Part shown: positions 47,614-54,800 of the stretch, piece by piece | How the letters are laid out: every line of letters starts with the position of its first letter | Numbering within the stretch: the first letter of the stretch is position 1 | NCBI GenBank assembly: GCA_963971535.1 | Contig: OZ020589.1 | Location: 81,475,184 to 81,539,183 of the forward strand | From: Notolepis coatsorum | Lineage: Eukaryota > Chordata > Actinopteri > Aulopiformes > Paralepididae | Length of the DNA stretch: 64,000 bases | Direction: 5' to 3' | Notes under the pieces: model-generated | What the model was told of the DNA's origin: nothing | The model's input: the letters and a program-made list of their open reading frames with translations, nothing else | Databases searched by the model: none | Position numbers and translations under genes: made by a program

Positions 47614-48349
47614 GAGGAGTGTGAAACGAGATGGGGAAGATTATTCAAGGCCAGGAGTTCATATACATACATTACTGTCCCGTGTATGGGTTTATGTACA
47701 TAATTGGCCTAGTGTGTGTCTGTGTGCATTTCATTAATTAGACATTAGCTGTACTTGTGTACAGACCAGACTTCAAGATGTTGCACTCTGTTTCAGTAGG
47801 TCTTGTTTATTTAGTGGTTGCAACTAGAGCAAGCTCTCCAAAAGAGAGCCATGGAGTAATTTGCTGATAATTTGTGTGATCTAATGTTTGCTTCTCATTT
47901 GCAACGTCTTGTTCTATAAATAATAGTGTATGTATACCAGTGGTGGAAAGCAATGAAGTATTTTTACTCAAGTACTGTACTTAAAGGGATAGTTCAGATT
48001 TTTTGGAACCCTAGACCTATTTGCTACTTAACAATGATCAGTGATGTACCTGAACGCGTTCAATGAACGATCGTTCATGAACGCGTTCATATTTTGGGTG
48101 AGCGTGAACTGAACGTACTGTATTTCCGCTAGATGAACGTAATGTGAACGCGTTCATTCTCTGCGCTCTATCACAGTATAACTTTGTCCAAAAGTGTGCC
48201 AGATTTGGGACGTGCGCACACGCACACACACACACCGAAAGGTTGCGCACGGAGAGAGAGACTTGTTACGCGCGACGCGGGCTGCCCCTTCAAGGCAATG
48301 GTAGGGGAAACACTGATAAATAATCACAGTGTGATGGAAATGCCAGTAT
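47614..48349. other. No gene; hAT-like terminal pieces
   Basis: CAGTGGTGGAAAG at 47,940 and AAAGGGATAGTTCAGATTTT at 47,983 resemble common fish MITE ends. CAGTGATGTACCTGAACGCG at 48,041 and GGTAGGGGAAACACTG ending near 48,316 look like two hAT ends, but no target duplication was found. Confidence 0.45.
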
Positions 48350-48863
48350 TCTGATTGTTGTCTGTGGTTCTATATAGTCTGGTCAGTTTAGGCATAATGG
48401 CTGCAAAAAATTATTAACATTTGAGCCAATGTTTTTCTGTTCATTTAGGGCCTGATAAACAAAAAAAGTGGCTTGGGCGCTGATCAATTCAGAGATATAG
48501 TTGGGTCAAGAACCAACATTCTGTGACCATTCTCTGGCTAAGATGTTTTGATGATTGATTTGACTTCTATGGACCTTTTATAAAATATTTAGCCCCCGTG
48601 TCCCTCCGAAAAATCCCGGCATTTTTTGTCAGATGGCCAAATCCAAAATATCTGCTGACGCCATCTTGAAAAATTAACTTTTGATCCAGAGCACCTAGAA
48701 TCATGTATGAATACACTTTTTTGTGTAAGTCAACCATGACGATTCCAATTCTGACATTAGTTTGACTCTATGACATCAATTTAACCCAGAAATCCAAGAT
48801 GGCCACCATCCAGTAGAGCAGAAATGTAGAAAGAGACAGCAGAGCGAAAATGTAACTTTTGAA
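48350..48863 (+). repeat. Left inverted repeat of the nuclease element
   Basis: It pairs with 52496-53178. It contains AAAATCCCGGCATTTTTTGT, TGCTGACGCCATCTTGAAAA and GAAATCCAAGATGGCCACCA. Motifs like AAGATGGC resemble YY1 sites, but this is only a possibility. Confidence 0.88.
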
Positions 48864-49280
48864 TGGGAAAGTAAGATTTGGTGTTTGGGCAGGGCTTCAG
48901 ACTAACAACTTTCCCAATAGCTAGCTAGCTAGCAACAACAACTAGTTAGCTAATATAGTCATTGTAGCCCTGTGTTTGGGGTTTGTTAACCCTTGTGTTG
49001 TGTTCGAAAGCTGTTTCTTTCAGGAGTTATTTTGATGATGTTCTGAGCTTGTGCTCAGCCTTCTGTTTCAAAAGGTATCTTGGACCACGCCATCTCGCCA
49101 TTCCTTGACATGAAGAACTCCTGTTGACCTCGCTCATCCAGGCCTTCTTCTTCAATAGACTGCGAGTGTGTGTGTGTGTGTGTGTGTGTGCGCATACGTG
49201 CGTGTGCACATGTGTGTGTGTGTACGTGCGTGCATGCGTGCACTATCCCTTCATACAATGGGTTTCACGCTGGCTTGAAT

Positions 49281-50495
49281 ATGGAGCAGAGGAAGAGCAA
49301 GGCTTATTTTCATACATCTTACAATAAACCGCCCAACAAGTCAGTTGTGAATGACATCATGGAGAAGCTGTCTACCATCATCGCAACTAAGCACATGCCC
49401 TTCGCCTTCTTAGTGGGAGATCATCCTGTGTACGTCCTCATCACTCTGCTCAAGGCCGAGAACCCAAACAAGTACCATGACATTGTACCCTTTCTTGGTC
49501 CCTTCCATACACAGTGTGTGATGATGAGCGCTATCTACAAGCGCTACAAGGGGAGTGAGCTAGGAGATGTACTTGTGGCAGGAGGAGTTATTGCAGAGGG
49601 CTCCGTCGACCGTGCACTGAAAGGCAAGCATTACAAGAGGGGGCTGCGTTGCTTGAGGCTCATCTATGAGGCACTCATGAGTCAGCTGGTAAAGGGGAGG
49701 CTCATGCCCAACCTGGCTGATGAGACAAGGGAGAACCTTGAGATTCTGAGAGATATGAGTCTCTCCCAAGAACCCCGTGCAGCTGCACATGCGGCACTGG
49801 AGGATGATACTGACCTCGAGAGCCTCATCACCAATTTATTCACCCAGGTGGAGGCCAGTGACATGGCGGACTACTGGAGGGACTTCCTGTCTATGACGGA
49901 TGCATTCATGCAGAATGTGCATGCAGTACATATCTGCAACTTGGATGAGTATGTCAGCTCTCTGCGTGCCATGCTGCCATGGATGGTAGTGTACGACAAC
50001 AATAGGTATGGAAGGTGGCTGCCTGACTTCTGGGCAATGCTGACAGCTCTCCCTGCTGATCAGGTCGCCTTCCTTCGTACTGACTTCACTCAGTCCATCA
50101 CAGGCAACCCCTACTCCAACATGGCCTGGGACATGTGGATCGAGTGTACAATGAACAAGGGCAGCAAAATGAAGTCTGGCTGGCTCTCCATCCTCCAGAA
50201 TGAGAAGCAGCTGCTGGTGCACTCCAGAAATGTGAACAATTTGGCCAAGATCCGGGTGACTCACAATGCCCTGGCCACACACAAAAAAGCCAAGAGGAAG
50301 CACATAGAATGTGGTCTGAAAAGGATGAGAGAAGATGAGCAGCGTGTGCAGGACCTGGTCGCATGCATGAGTTTGATTCCTTCCCATTTGATCCAGCCTC
50401 ACCCACCCTCCGCACACTACAGTCAGCCATGCCTGCCTCTGATGAACTCATCGCGGACTTCAACTCAGCCTATGCTGTGGGAGAGGAGAAGTTGA
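49281..50495 (+). CDS. N-terminal half of the uncharacterised nuclease-element protein
   Basis: The open frame reaches back to 49170 through a (GT)n tract. The first methionine outside it is at 49281 (MEQRKSKAYF). The residues just before (IPSYNGFHAGLN) look like family sequence too, so the true start is probably further upstream, perhaps in another exon: SYFDDVLSLCSAFCFKR at about 49029-49074 lies between splice-like sites. Recognisable segments are FLGPFHTQCVMMSAIYKRYK, VIAEGSVDRALKGKHYKRGL and NNRYGRWLPDFWAML, then FTQSITGNPYSNMAWDMWIE. From memory of animal proteins, these belong to a large uncharacterised family abundant in cnidarians and fish, where the same region reads LGEFHT, GxxxNRxxRAHK and NYARWLP. 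The function is unknown. The frame is overlapped from 50363 by the next one, to which the family sequence passes. Confidence 0.7.
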   Translation: MEQRKSKAYFHTSYNKPPNKSVVNDIMEKLSTIIATKHMPFAFLVGDHPVYVLITLLKAENPNKYHDIVPFLGPFHTQCVMMSAIYKRYKGSELGDVLVAGGVIAEGSVDRALKGKHYKRGLRCLRLIYEALMSQLVKGRLMPNLADETRENLEILRDMSLSQEPRAAAHAALEDDTDLESLITNLFTQVEASDMADYWRDFLSMTDAFMQNVHAVHICNLDEYVSSLRAMLPWMVVYDNNRYGRWLPDFWAMLTALPADQVAFLRTDFTQSITGNPYSNMAWDMWIECTMNKGSKMKSGWLSILQNEKQLLVHSRNVNNLAKIRVTHNALATHKKAKRKHIECGLKRMREDEQRVQDLVACMSLIPSHLIQPHPPSAHYSQPCLPLMNSSRTSTQPMLWERRS

Positions 50496-52096
50496 CCAGC
50501 TTCTTGCAAGACCGAGTGTTCAGTAAGAAAACCTCCCTCCATGCACCTGTCCCTCTGAGCAAACGCTTGACATTTGCCAAGCAGCCCTGCATGGAGAAGC
50601 CCGGGGAGGAACTCAAAGCAAGAGCTGCTGAGATGGAGCGGAGTGCTCTCAAGGCAGTGATCGACCTGGTTGAGGTCAGTCAACTTGTGAATCTCTCAGA
50701 GTTGCTGGAACATCATGTTGTCGAGGAATGTGTGGCCTTATTCAACTCCAATGGCACATATAGGAAGACACAGAAGAGCAAGCTCATTCAGAAGCTCTCT
50801 CTCCAATCTGTAGATCTGCAAGAACCCTACACCGCTCTTGTCGACATGGGCATGATCTGGAGGATGGCAACCCCATCAGCAGAAGATCGGCAGACACAAG
50901 ATGGCACCCCATACAAGTGGTTGGACTATGTCCACAAGGTATCATCCATCATCCTTGCCCGCCATGGTGATGCTGACCGTATTTTCTGTGTAAATGACCC
51001 GTACGACGTAGCATACTCAACTAAAGATGATGAGCGAGATCTGCGGGTACAAGGTAAGGTACATGTCCCCAACACCTACATGAAGCTGGGCGACCCCTTT
51101 CCCTCTGCCAGAGAGTTCAAAACACTGCTGTGTAGCGTCAGCAACAAGGAGCGGCTACAAAAAGTAATATGCAGCTATCTGACTGACCTTGTTGCACAGG
51201 GTGTAGATTCAGATATCGTCTACTCTGTTGGCTCCCACTGCACCAACTTGTCAACCCAGCAACCAATGCAGAACTACAGCTTTGACCAGTCTGAGGCTGA
51301 CACCATCCTCTTCTCTGCTTACACAGTTCTACGTGAGTCAGGCTACAGTGGCCCTGTGGTCATTGATGCAGCCGACACCGATACCTATGTCATGGCAGCG
51401 GCCATCTCTCAACAGCTGCCCGGTATGCTCTGCATCAAGAGAAAGCAGAACACGGTCTTCTGCCGTGGCCTGGTTACTGAGGAGATGGCAGATTGTATTG
51501 TGCAGCTACACTGCATTACAGGCTGTGATGCCAATTCAGGCTTCTATGACAAGGGTAAGTCGTCGGTGTATGACAAGGTGGCAAAGAGCCTTATGGCACG
51601 ACGGCTGCTCTCGCGGTGTGGAGATAGCCTTTACCTTGAGGAGGAGGTGCTAGAGGAGCTGTTCGAGTTCACACGACATGTTATTTATGGCGACAAGAAG
51701 AGTAGCACCATGGCTGAGGCCCGTGCCACAAAGTGGAAGAGAATGAAGAACAAATCATTCATCCATCTCCCTCCAGATGCAGATAGCCTACGCCAACACT
51801 GCCTCCGTGCCAACTACTTGGCATAACTAGTGCGCCACCCCTCCCTGAAGCGACACCCTTCGCCACTCGGACATGGCTGGGAGCTGGTGGGTGGTCGCTG
51901 TCGCCCTGTCCGCCACACACGACCTGCTCTCCCAACACATCTACCTGCACCAGGGCCAGCTGAAGAAAGTGAGGAAGAGGAGAGTGAGGAGGATGATGAT
52001 GAGAAGGGAGATGATGATGTATGGAGGAGGAGGGGTGATTCATTGGAATCTGATGATTCAGAATCTAGTGAGGCAGAATGCTCTGATTCGGACTGA
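50363..52096 (+). CDS. C-terminal half: FEN/XPG/PIN-like nuclease domain and acidic tail
   Basis: The frame is open for 487 codons to a TAA at 51824. The same frame then continues in family-like wording (LVRHPSLKRHPSPLGHGWEL, GGRCRPVRHTRPALP) to an acidic Glu/Asp/Ser-rich end at 52096, so the TAA looks like a single change in this copy. Acidic motifs come in FEN/PIN order: VDMG (D161), VNDPYD with DDERDLR (D212 on), SEADT (E311, D313), VIDAADTDTY (D335, D338, D340) and ITGCDANSG (D389). In FEN1/XPG enzymes the matching places are the first Asp, DG.PP, EAEA, DxD and GCDY. Metal-dependent cleavage of DNA or RNA is inferred, not shown. The overlap with the first frame at 50363-50495 implies a frameshift mutation, a -1 ribosomal shift or an unseen intron. 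Confidence 0.68.
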
Positions 52097-52126
52097 TCAT
52101 GACATGTTTAAAGTGGTTTCATTGTT

Positions 52127-52330
52127 GGGGCGCTCCAGTAGCACACCACATAGCGTGCTGAGTCGCGAAGCGGTCGTCCCGGGTTCATTTCCCAGTCCCG
52201 GCGACCATTTGCTGCATGTCTTCCCTACCTCTCCTCCCGTTCTCCCTCTCTCCCTCTATCGGTCCTGCGTGGCCAGAAAAAGCTGAAAATGCTATAAAGT
52301 TAAAAAAAAAAATAAAAAAAAAATAAAAAA
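52127..52330 (+). mobile_element. tRNA-derived SINE with perfect 14-bp TSD, inside the nuclease element
   Basis: The 14 bases GTGGTTTCATTGTT lie at 52113-52126 and 52331-52344. The head holds a B-box-like GGGTTCATTTCCC near 52170, and the tail is A-rich with AAATAAA units. It is a different family from the SINE at 43,913. It inserted in the space between the reading frame and the right inverted repeat. Confidence 0.86.
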
Positions 52331-52495
52331 GTGGTTTCATTGTTAATCTGTTCAAGTTACAGCTATTTAAGAGAGCGTATTTTGAAGTATAATTAGTTAT
52401 CTTATCATACTGTACATTCATAAATTATTTTGCTGAGATCCTTATGAAGGTAGTTTGTTTAAAGTACAGCAGTACCATGGTAAAATTGGTTTTGA

Positions 52496-53178
52496 CATTA
52501 AAAGTTACATTTTCGCTCTACTGTATGGTGGCCATCTTGGATTTCTGGGTCAAATTGATGTCATAGAGTCAAACTGATGTCAGAATTGGAATCGTCATGG
52601 TTGACTTACACAAAAAAGTGTATTCATACATGATTCTAGGTGCTCTGGATCAAAAGTTAATTTTTCAAGATGGCGTCAGCAGGTATTTTGGATTTGGCCA
52701 TCTGACAAAAAATGCCGGGATTTTTCTGAGGGACACGGGGGCTAAATATTTTATAAAAGGTCCATAGAAGTCAAATCAATCATCAAAACATCTTAGCCAG
52801 AGAATGGTCACAGAATGTTGGTTCTTGACCCAACTAAAAAAAAAGTTTTTCATGAATATCTCAAAAGGTTAAAGGTTTTAGGGCATATGTTTGTTCATAA
52901 CACTAATATAAATGTGGTGTTTCCGCAACTATTGAGCTCAAAATCAACTCTCTGCGACCTCCAGGAGCCGAGATACAAAATGTCAGGTCTAAAAAGTGGG
53001 CGTGGCCGTTTCAGAGACTTCGCCTACCTAATTTTTTGGGCTCCTTGCATTTTTTTCTTTATTGGACCCTAAATGAACAGAAAAACATTGGCTCAAATGT
53101 TAATCATGATTTGCAGCCTTGACCCAATATTTTCCCCAAACTGACCAGACTAATATGGTTTGTGGCAATCATTTTGAC
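52496..53178 (-). repeat. Right inverted repeat of the nuclease element
   Basis: It is the inverse of 48350-48863. It contains an additional 190 bases (about 52842-53030) missing from the left arm, so this arm is the fuller version. Confidence 0.88.
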
Positions 53179-53430
53179 AAATAACAGCTCGCAGCAACGT
53201 ATTGAAAAAATAACTTTAAACTAGTTAATTTTTTGATCCAGGAGGACGGGACTTGGACATCCGGTATAGGATGTGGTAGACGTGTTTCTCCACGCTGCAA
53301 CTCCCCAACTTTTCAAACCTACGCTAAAAAGCCTTGTTGATACTCTTAACTTTATTATTATTTTTCTTTTTTGATACTTTCTTTCTTCGGATATTTTGCT
53401 ACTAATTAATTTTTGGCTGTGACAGGCATA
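53179..53430 (+). other. 5' untranslated region of a LINE
   Basis: GC-moderate sequence leads to ORF1. It includes GGACGGGACTTGGACATCCG and ends GACAGGCATA before the ATG. No other feature was seen. Confidence 0.45.
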
Positions 53431-54245
53431 ATGGCATCGAAATGGCCAAAGAACAAGGACACTAAGGGCACGGATTCACCATCCACAGACAACGCGCCGA
53501 CGGATTTGACGAGCATTGCCATACTAATACAGAACCTCACGCTGGAATTCAGAGTCTCCGCCGCCTCGGCCGACTCCAAACTAGATAACCTCCAGTTATC
53601 CGTAGCTGACCATGCCAAGCGTCTGACATCCGTGGAGGATGGACTAAATACATGGTCCGATAGGATGGTGAGCTTAGAGGCTAGGTGTTTGACTCTGAAG
53701 GAGAGCAACGGCAAACTGAAGAACAAGCTTATCGATGTTGAGTCACGTGGCCGTCGGTCAAACATACGCATAATAGGGCTAGACGAGTCTATCCAAAGCG
53801 ACCGACCCAATGATATTTTTGCCGAGGTGCTGGTGGAAATTCTGGCCAAGGAAGTGCTTGCTACACCACCCGACCTTGATCGCTGTCACAGGGCGCTGAC
53901 GGCCAGACCAGCCCCCGGCTCCAGGCGCAGGGCAGTGATCGCCTGCCTACACTGATTCAGAACCAAGGAGACTATTATTCGGGAGGCTCGGAAGAGGAGA
54001 GGGTCGCTGACCTACAGGTGGAAACCTGTGCTAATATTCGAGGACTACTGTCAGGAAGTGATCGAACAACGTCCCGCTACCGTGATATTATGGGATCCCT
54101 CTACCAGCAGGGATATAAACCATCCTTACAGTACCCAGCGAGACTCTTCATCAAAGACAAAGCCGACGCAAAAAGACATCTTGCTTCACCTAAGGACGCT
54201 ACAGACTTTCTGAAGAAACAACACACATCGACTCCAGCAGAGTGA
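53431..54245 (+). pseudogene. LINE ORF1 (L1/Tx1 type), broken, without ORF2
   Basis: It starts MASKWPKNKDTKGTDSPSTD. A coiled-coil-like stretch follows (LEARCLTLKESNGKLKNKLI) and then the L1 ORF1p core SRGRRSNIRIIGLDESIQSD and DLDRCHRALTARPAPGSRRR. A TGA near 53953 interrupts it, and the frame reopens as FRTKETIIREARKRRGSLTY. A frameshift near 54080 moves to YQQGYKPSLQYPARLFIKDK, which ends at 54245. It is related to but clearly different from the ORF1 at 5.8 kb. No ORF2 follows. Confidence 0.82.
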
Positions 54246-54248
54246 AAC

Positions 54249-54800
54249 TTTGGGTAACACACCGAGCACCACGACTCTATAGTTATATCTCCGTGCTTTC
54301 ATCCTTAGACGGCTAAAGTTGGGACATATGTCGCTGGGGAGCCTCTTCTCTCATTAACTTTTTTTGCTCGTTTTGTTTACAACGTTATATGGATAATTGT
54401 ATCTGCTATTTGCCGGGGTACTAGCGCTATGCTCTCCGTTTCAAGTAAATTGTACATTTGTATTTACTCTGAGCTATGCTTATCGATATTATTTATATTT
54501 TGTATTGCTTTTGTGTATGACACGGTTTATCCTACCCATGTCTACTTTGGGTAACACACTAAACATCACGACTGTCTGTCTATCTCCGTGCTTAGATGGG
54601 TGATGTTGGGACATTGTGTGTCGCTCGGGAACATCGCCCCTTATGTACTTTTTTTGTTATTTATAATAGTTTCCACTGTTTATCGGGGTGCTGACGCTAT
54701 GGTCGCCGTCTCCAAGCAAATTATGCATTTTGTTTACTCTAAGCTATGCTTATCGATATGATTTCTATTTTGTATTGCTCCTGTGCGTGACGCGGATTTA
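54249..54800 (+). repeat. Tandem duplication, about 298-bp unit, two copies
   Basis: TTTGGGTAACACAC occurs at 54249 and 54547. The two units share TACTCTAAGCTATGCTTATC-like text, TCGATATGATTTCTATTTTG and GGGGTGCTGACGCTATGGTC with substitutions. It lies where the ORF1-ORF2 spacer of the LINE would be. Confidence 0.78.

Follow-up and report, generated by a model that had tools for sequence, protein, structure and literature searches.

The fish Notolepis coatsorum carries, in the 64,000-nucleotide stretch of DNA analysed here (the window), a gene for a predicted nuclease between inverted repeats, and the question this locus raises is what moves it. The first-pass annotation read positions 48350-53178 as a possible mobile element whose FEN/PIN-like nuclease might supply the mobility. 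We find that positions 48498-52836 are one truncated, frame-broken copy of a DNA transposon that has recently multiplied. With a probability of about 0.88, we take it to be a non-autonomous copy of a recently active AcademX-type transposon, probably one of fish, as its nearest named relatives suggest.

Limits of the transposon and the sequence around it

The inverted repeats and their surroundings are laid out as follows.

48375..48467, plus strand: left arm of a putative older host inverted-repeat element, starting TAGTCTGGTCAG..., with ATA before it (48372-48374)
48495..48497, no strand: left flanking triplet ATA
48498..52836, plus strand: transposon, a 5'-deleted derivative of 4339 bp; the matching of other copies ends at these limits
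48498..48828, plus strand: left terminal inverted repeat, 331 bp, first bases TAGTTGGGTCAAGAACC
52112..52330, plus strand: SINE-like stretch with an A-rich end, within the element
52506..52836, minus strand: right terminal inverted repeat, 331 bp, 97.9% identical to the left
52837..52839, no strand: right flanking triplet AAA, the start of an A run
53050..53152, minus strand: right arm of the putative older element, 81% identical to its left arm, followed by ATA (53153-53155)

As had been annotated, two overlapping plus-strand frames lie between inverted arms, which come in two pairs. The inner pair, 48498-48828 and 52506-52836, is 98% alike over 331 nt; the outer pair, 48399-48467 and 53050-53118, is 90% alike over 69 nt, and BLAST extends it to 103 columns at 81%. 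The alignment comprised 60 loci from the genome, including two (L001 and L031) that correspond to the window's own copy. Where an end is reached in other genomic copies, the match is lost within 16 bp of 48498 or 52836; the exceptions fall at the right end, where L025 ceases to match at 52409 and part of the right repeat is missing from L019. Because the match ends near these two positions, the 331-bp pair is the only one that forms part of the gene-bearing element. We rejected the outer arms as transposon ends for the same reason, and the single arm of about 0.5 or 0.7 kb per side that had been proposed is not confirmed. A DNA search of the genome with 48375-48828 returned at least 41 matches (40 scored of 857 candidates), among which the outermost 107 bases of the query were matched by the window's own copy only.

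Outside the transposon lie 123 bp on the left and 316 bp on the right, 439 bp in total and with inverted ends. From its sequence, this remainder of ~0.44 kb reads as an older small inverted-repeat element interrupted by the transposon. The first bases of the older element (48375-48497 plus 52837-53152) resemble the transposon's own ends, and it may be an old non-autonomous relative.

A SINE had also been noted here. The stretch at 52112-52330 reads as SINE-like from its sequence; since it is common to most copies aligned across it (L007 lacks part), it is a component of the transposon. ARAGORN found no tRNA gene in this stretch, and Rfam at gathering thresholds gave no match in 48000-54500. 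Further along the window, 53434-53955 holds a frame whose sequence resembles ORF1 of a fish L1-type LINE; its Pfam coiled-coil matches are weak and below cut-off.

Many recent copies with 3-bp target duplications

A protein search of the same 3.42-Gb genome with the 50363-51823 product gave at least 93 matches (88 scored of 2241 candidates), and many near-identical copies lie on many contigs. We read target duplications at 30 loci found by the nuclease frame, of which 25 had both ends readable; the remaining five are L012, L019, L023, L025 and L030. A 3-bp duplication flanks 23 of the 25 two-ended copies, with a match length of exactly 3 in all 23. The two misses are the window copy, whose ATA/AAA flanks are an imperfect 3-bp duplication, and L020 (GGT/GGG), and each has a homopolymer run on its right side. 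These counts bear out the earlier proposals that this is a mobile element and that mobility explains the family's high copy number.

It could be imagined that a host nuclease gene was captured by, or simply lies between, unrelated inverted repeats. Nothing speaks for this beyond the appearance of the single locus, and against it stand copies that are spread over many contigs and share their ends, with duplications in 23 of 25. Arms mostly lacking the gene were not seen: the 30 best-scoring arm loci among the 857 candidates, one of them the window's, all extend into the gene-bearing interior, although gene-less arms may occur among the unscored candidates. We give gene capture next to no chance, as the target duplications in effect refute it.

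The left and right repeats of a single copy differ by 2-5% (5 copies compared). Between copies, left repeats match the window's left repeat at 97-99.7% and right repeats its right repeat at 98.8-100% (5 copies compared). Because like-sided repeats match so closely, the difference between left and right is mostly inherited and is not a measure of age. Measured against the majority of 30 copies, 29 show a synonymous divergence of 0.3-1.9% and L030 one of 3.1%; such low values indicate that the burst was recent. At one site (L018/L055, G000:C24:132615877-132620491), a second, partial terminal repeat adjoins one end, and a TCA duplication flanks the outer one.

One gene, broken in the window

The coding parts of the window copy are these.

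48974..49241, plus strand: deletion junction zone, a (GT)n microsatellite in the place of the N-terminal and first-D coding sequence of longer copies
49281..50495, plus strand: frame 1 from its ATG, with the second D (GDHPVY), FH motif, helical insert and E (WIECTMNKGSK) of the DDE part
50363..51826, plus strand: frame 2, a linker and a FEN/EXO1/XPG-like nuclease domain, with an early stop
51827..52096, plus strand: C-terminal tail with an acidic stretch, in frame with frame 2 beyond its stop; uninterrupted in intact copies such as L012

From stop to stop, frame 1 covers 49128-50495 and frame 2 covers 50339-51826. Eleven of the 30 best-matching loci (L002, L004, L012, L013, L016, L020, L021, L022, L025, L026 and L028) have a single open stop-to-stop frame of 968-1045 codons, which in L012 is 939 codons from the ATG. 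Judged by these sister sequences, the pair of frames in the window represents a single gene that a frameshift and a stop have interrupted. A programmed frameshift is not favoured, given the single open frame at those 11 loci.

Across 30 copies, the shortened frame has a pooled dN/dS of 0.74 and a pairwise median of 0.75 (381 of 435 pairs, those with more than 5 synonymous differences; Nei-Gojobori counts without transition correction). Selection on this frame is not evident, as 0.74 is near neutral, and weak selection is still compatible with the value. The high copy number of the shortened frame is best read as the hitch-hiking of a young derivative.

Longer relatives and the loss of the 5' part

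Searching 5.8 billion proteins with the L012 product yielded at least 93 relatives among the 7987 candidates scored, those with the most words in common with the query. The best relative listed is 86% identical over 98% of the query, and several have about 1520 residues. Judged by these relatives, the full-length protein (~1520 aa) consists of an N-terminal cysteine/histidine region, whose clusters appear zinc-finger-like, a D-D-E core, and then the FEN/EXO1/XPG-like nuclease. Homology between the window and one long relative (P0004) begins at residue 572, position 49242, so that the first ~570 residues, with the cysteine/histidine clusters and the motif DNDDF, are absent. The other two-ended copies lack this 5' part as well, because at 4.1-4.6 kb 24 of the 25 are too short for it; the last, L010, measures 5.8 kb, and its extra sequence sits within the part after residue 572. 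L024 has the same repeats and an ATA duplication; it diverges from the common left part at 48973, and its match picks up again at residue 466, just past DNDDF. The L024 type and the window type look like two separate 5' deletions.

A genome search with residues 1-563 gave at least 82 matches (77 scored of 563 candidates), and 12 sites are common to the N-terminal and nuclease tables, among the matches listed. A 964-codon frame at C23:53.92 Mb appears in both tables, which suggests one copy with a frame that is already open ahead of the first D and runs into the nuclease. The first D has been kept by older copies that share this left end (L077, L080, L083 and L084, left ends read). L077 encodes residues 83-512, with DNDDF intact, before an internal deletion to 828; L083 and L084 share this layout. 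L080 combines the left end with residues 4-932, interrupted by stops; L089, at the same place, has residues 940-1440. The window copy thus appears to be a non-autonomous derivative of a longer DDE transposon, its first D lost by 5' deletion. Elsewhere, L086 and L087 (G000:C7 and C29) have a left end built from right-end sequence (~52302-52836, inverted), a rearranged derivative, and several more sites gave nearly the same match in the residues 1-563 search.

The nuclease domain

FEN1 has a characteristic metal-site pattern, which served as the basis of comparison for the acidic positions of the element. For residue conservation, we hand-picked 30 rows, mostly long, from the 93 relatives, and a second alignment joined the window frame to 29 rows. 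The C-terminal domain of the 50363-51826 product models as a FEN/EXO1/XPG fold, in agreement with the FEN/PIN-like fold first suggested, and the EADT, DTD and TGCD motifs pointed out then are present and conserved. Seven acidic nuclease residues are invariant in 30 of 30 rows. The predicted domain therefore combines the fold and the acidic metal-site residues by which the FEN/XPG superfamily is recognised. Searched by sequence against the PDB, the nuclease part had no match. In a PDB profile search, we took a match to DnaA (E 0.0046) as chance, and another match had E 1.4. A viral-contig scan returned 27 pattern matches, with no relative among them.

The D-D-E core

The first D is conserved in all 25 rows that reach its position (5 of the 30 do not), and the second D, the FH histidine and the E are present in 30 of 30. 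For the relative P0017, the predicted order is strand-strand-strand-helix-strand(D2)-helix-strand-helical insert-helix(E), which fits an RNase H-like core. A Foldseek search with P0017 returned transposases as weak matches, none of them at E below 1 (ISCth4, E 1.7; Transib, E 2.5). Pfam DUF6589 spans the D2-to-E stretch of the element protein, but the match is weak: window frame 1 scores 23.5 bits (E 2.7e-5), under the curated cut-off of 27, while 3 of 5 relatives tested score above it. The literature searched contains no mention of DUF6589.

This core bears directly on the proposal that a FEN-like enzyme stands in place of a DDE, HUH or recombinase enzyme, making this a new kind of element moved by a FEN/PIN-like nuclease alone. 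The fold appears real, and the coding sequence of the abundant young copies includes the nuclease but lacks the first catalytic D, both as this proposal would have it. However, D1, D2 and E all precede the nuclease in the longer relatives, the first D is retained by older copies that share this left end, and 3-bp duplications are the pattern published for AcademX (accessible parts of PMC10045372). We consider it very improbable that the nuclease acts alone; the undeleted relatives instead point to a DDE transposon.

A possible division of labor

In a DDE transposon of this kind, the D-D-E core would nick the ends of the element and attach their 3' ends to the target at cuts offset by 3 bp. The nuclease would trim 5' flaps or the non-transferred strands of the branched intermediate, and window-type copies would be mobilised in trans by the protein of longer copies. 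Most likely, the nuclease is an accessory and not a new class of transposase. We also suggest, tentatively and as something we think rather unlikely, a stricter form, in which two fused nucleases split transposition: the D-D-E part nicks and joins the 3' ends and the FEN part clears the 5' flaps, leaving a clean insertion. The copies with a 939-codon frame but no first D would then provide, in trans, either a flap nuclease or a competing subunit, and be more than junk.

As a young family of AcademX type whose ends, 3-bp duplications and open frames are defined, the element offers a test system for the role of a flap nuclease in a DDE transposon. It also identifies as transposon protein an uncharacterised family that occurs in named fish, in corals and in a few further animals. 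In Dissostichus eleginoides, seven of these proteins (P0007-P0011, P0020 and P0021) bear the public names U3 small nucleolar RNA-associated protein 10, Serine/threonine-protein kinase ATG1 and Leucine--tRNA ligase, which look like misannotations. Two further proteins, P0025 from the gastropod Nucella lapillus (78% identical) and P0076 from the sea spider Nymphon (62%), fall inside a supported clade with four named fish rows and the element. Their rows are partial, with 49% and 28% of the columns, and most other rows of the clade are unnamed. The placement hints, on these sequences, at horizontal transfer between animal phyla, with contamination as the alternative.

Comparison with known transposons and nucleases

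The nuclease of AcademX transposons is XPG-like. Academ is counted among the DDD/E superfamilies in the accessible parts of PMC9587614, and corresponding parts of other sources place it in zebrafish, medaka and stickleback (PMC4746887) and in bivalves, with a mean length of 5565 bp (PMC10294476). In PMC10045372, as far as its text was available, AcademX is the branch of Academ with an encoded nuclease and target duplications of 3-4 bp. The word XPG is absent from the available text of PMC10045372, PMC9587614 and PMC10294476. The traits of AcademX recur here: terminal inverted repeats (331 bp, 97.9%), a DDD/E triad in the family, with its first D absent from window-type copies, a nuclease encoded with the transposase, and duplications within the 3-4 bp range, exactly 3 bp in 23 of 25 copies. 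The combination of a nuclease with such duplications was thus already published, and the suggestion that the element is undescribed in kind is not supported.

The AcademX assignment is probable, and rests on described features rather than on sequence comparison with Academ references. A nuclease-bearing DDE transposon of some other superfamily, or of an unnamed sister group, is also to be weighed: Academ is matched by description, and the sole notable curated match is the weak one to DUF6589. Against this, a long element, present in teleosts and pairing a nuclease with 3-bp duplications, fits Academ as the accessible sources describe it, and we hold an origin outside Academ to be unlikely. We retain AcademX as the closest described lineage.

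AcademH is the sister lineage to AcademX in the same superfamily, but it has a helicase and 9-10 bp duplications, according to the available parts of PMC10045372, whereas the present element has a nuclease and 3 bp. A Pfam scan of five relatives, three of them with 1519-1546 aa, found no helicase at E up to 1. KolobokE, KolobokP and KolobokD are likewise DDE transposons with an added nuclease, but theirs are PD-D/ExK, His-Me finger and DEDDh enzymes, as given in the accessible parts of PMC9587614. The domain described here models as FEN/EXO1 and not as any of these three, and this FEN/XPG-like nuclease shares one frame with the transposase core. With FEN1, EXO1, XPG and XRN, it has in common the predicted fold and the seven invariant acidic positions; it differs from them in being part of a transposon protein and in its identity of 10-16% over aligned residues in the rows listed. 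To AcademX, the likeness extends over the DDD/E triad, nuclease, 3-bp duplication, occurrence in teleosts and long element, and the difference is that window-type copies are 4.3 kb, 5'-deleted and without the first D. The element is real, but it is not of a new kind and closely resembles AcademX.
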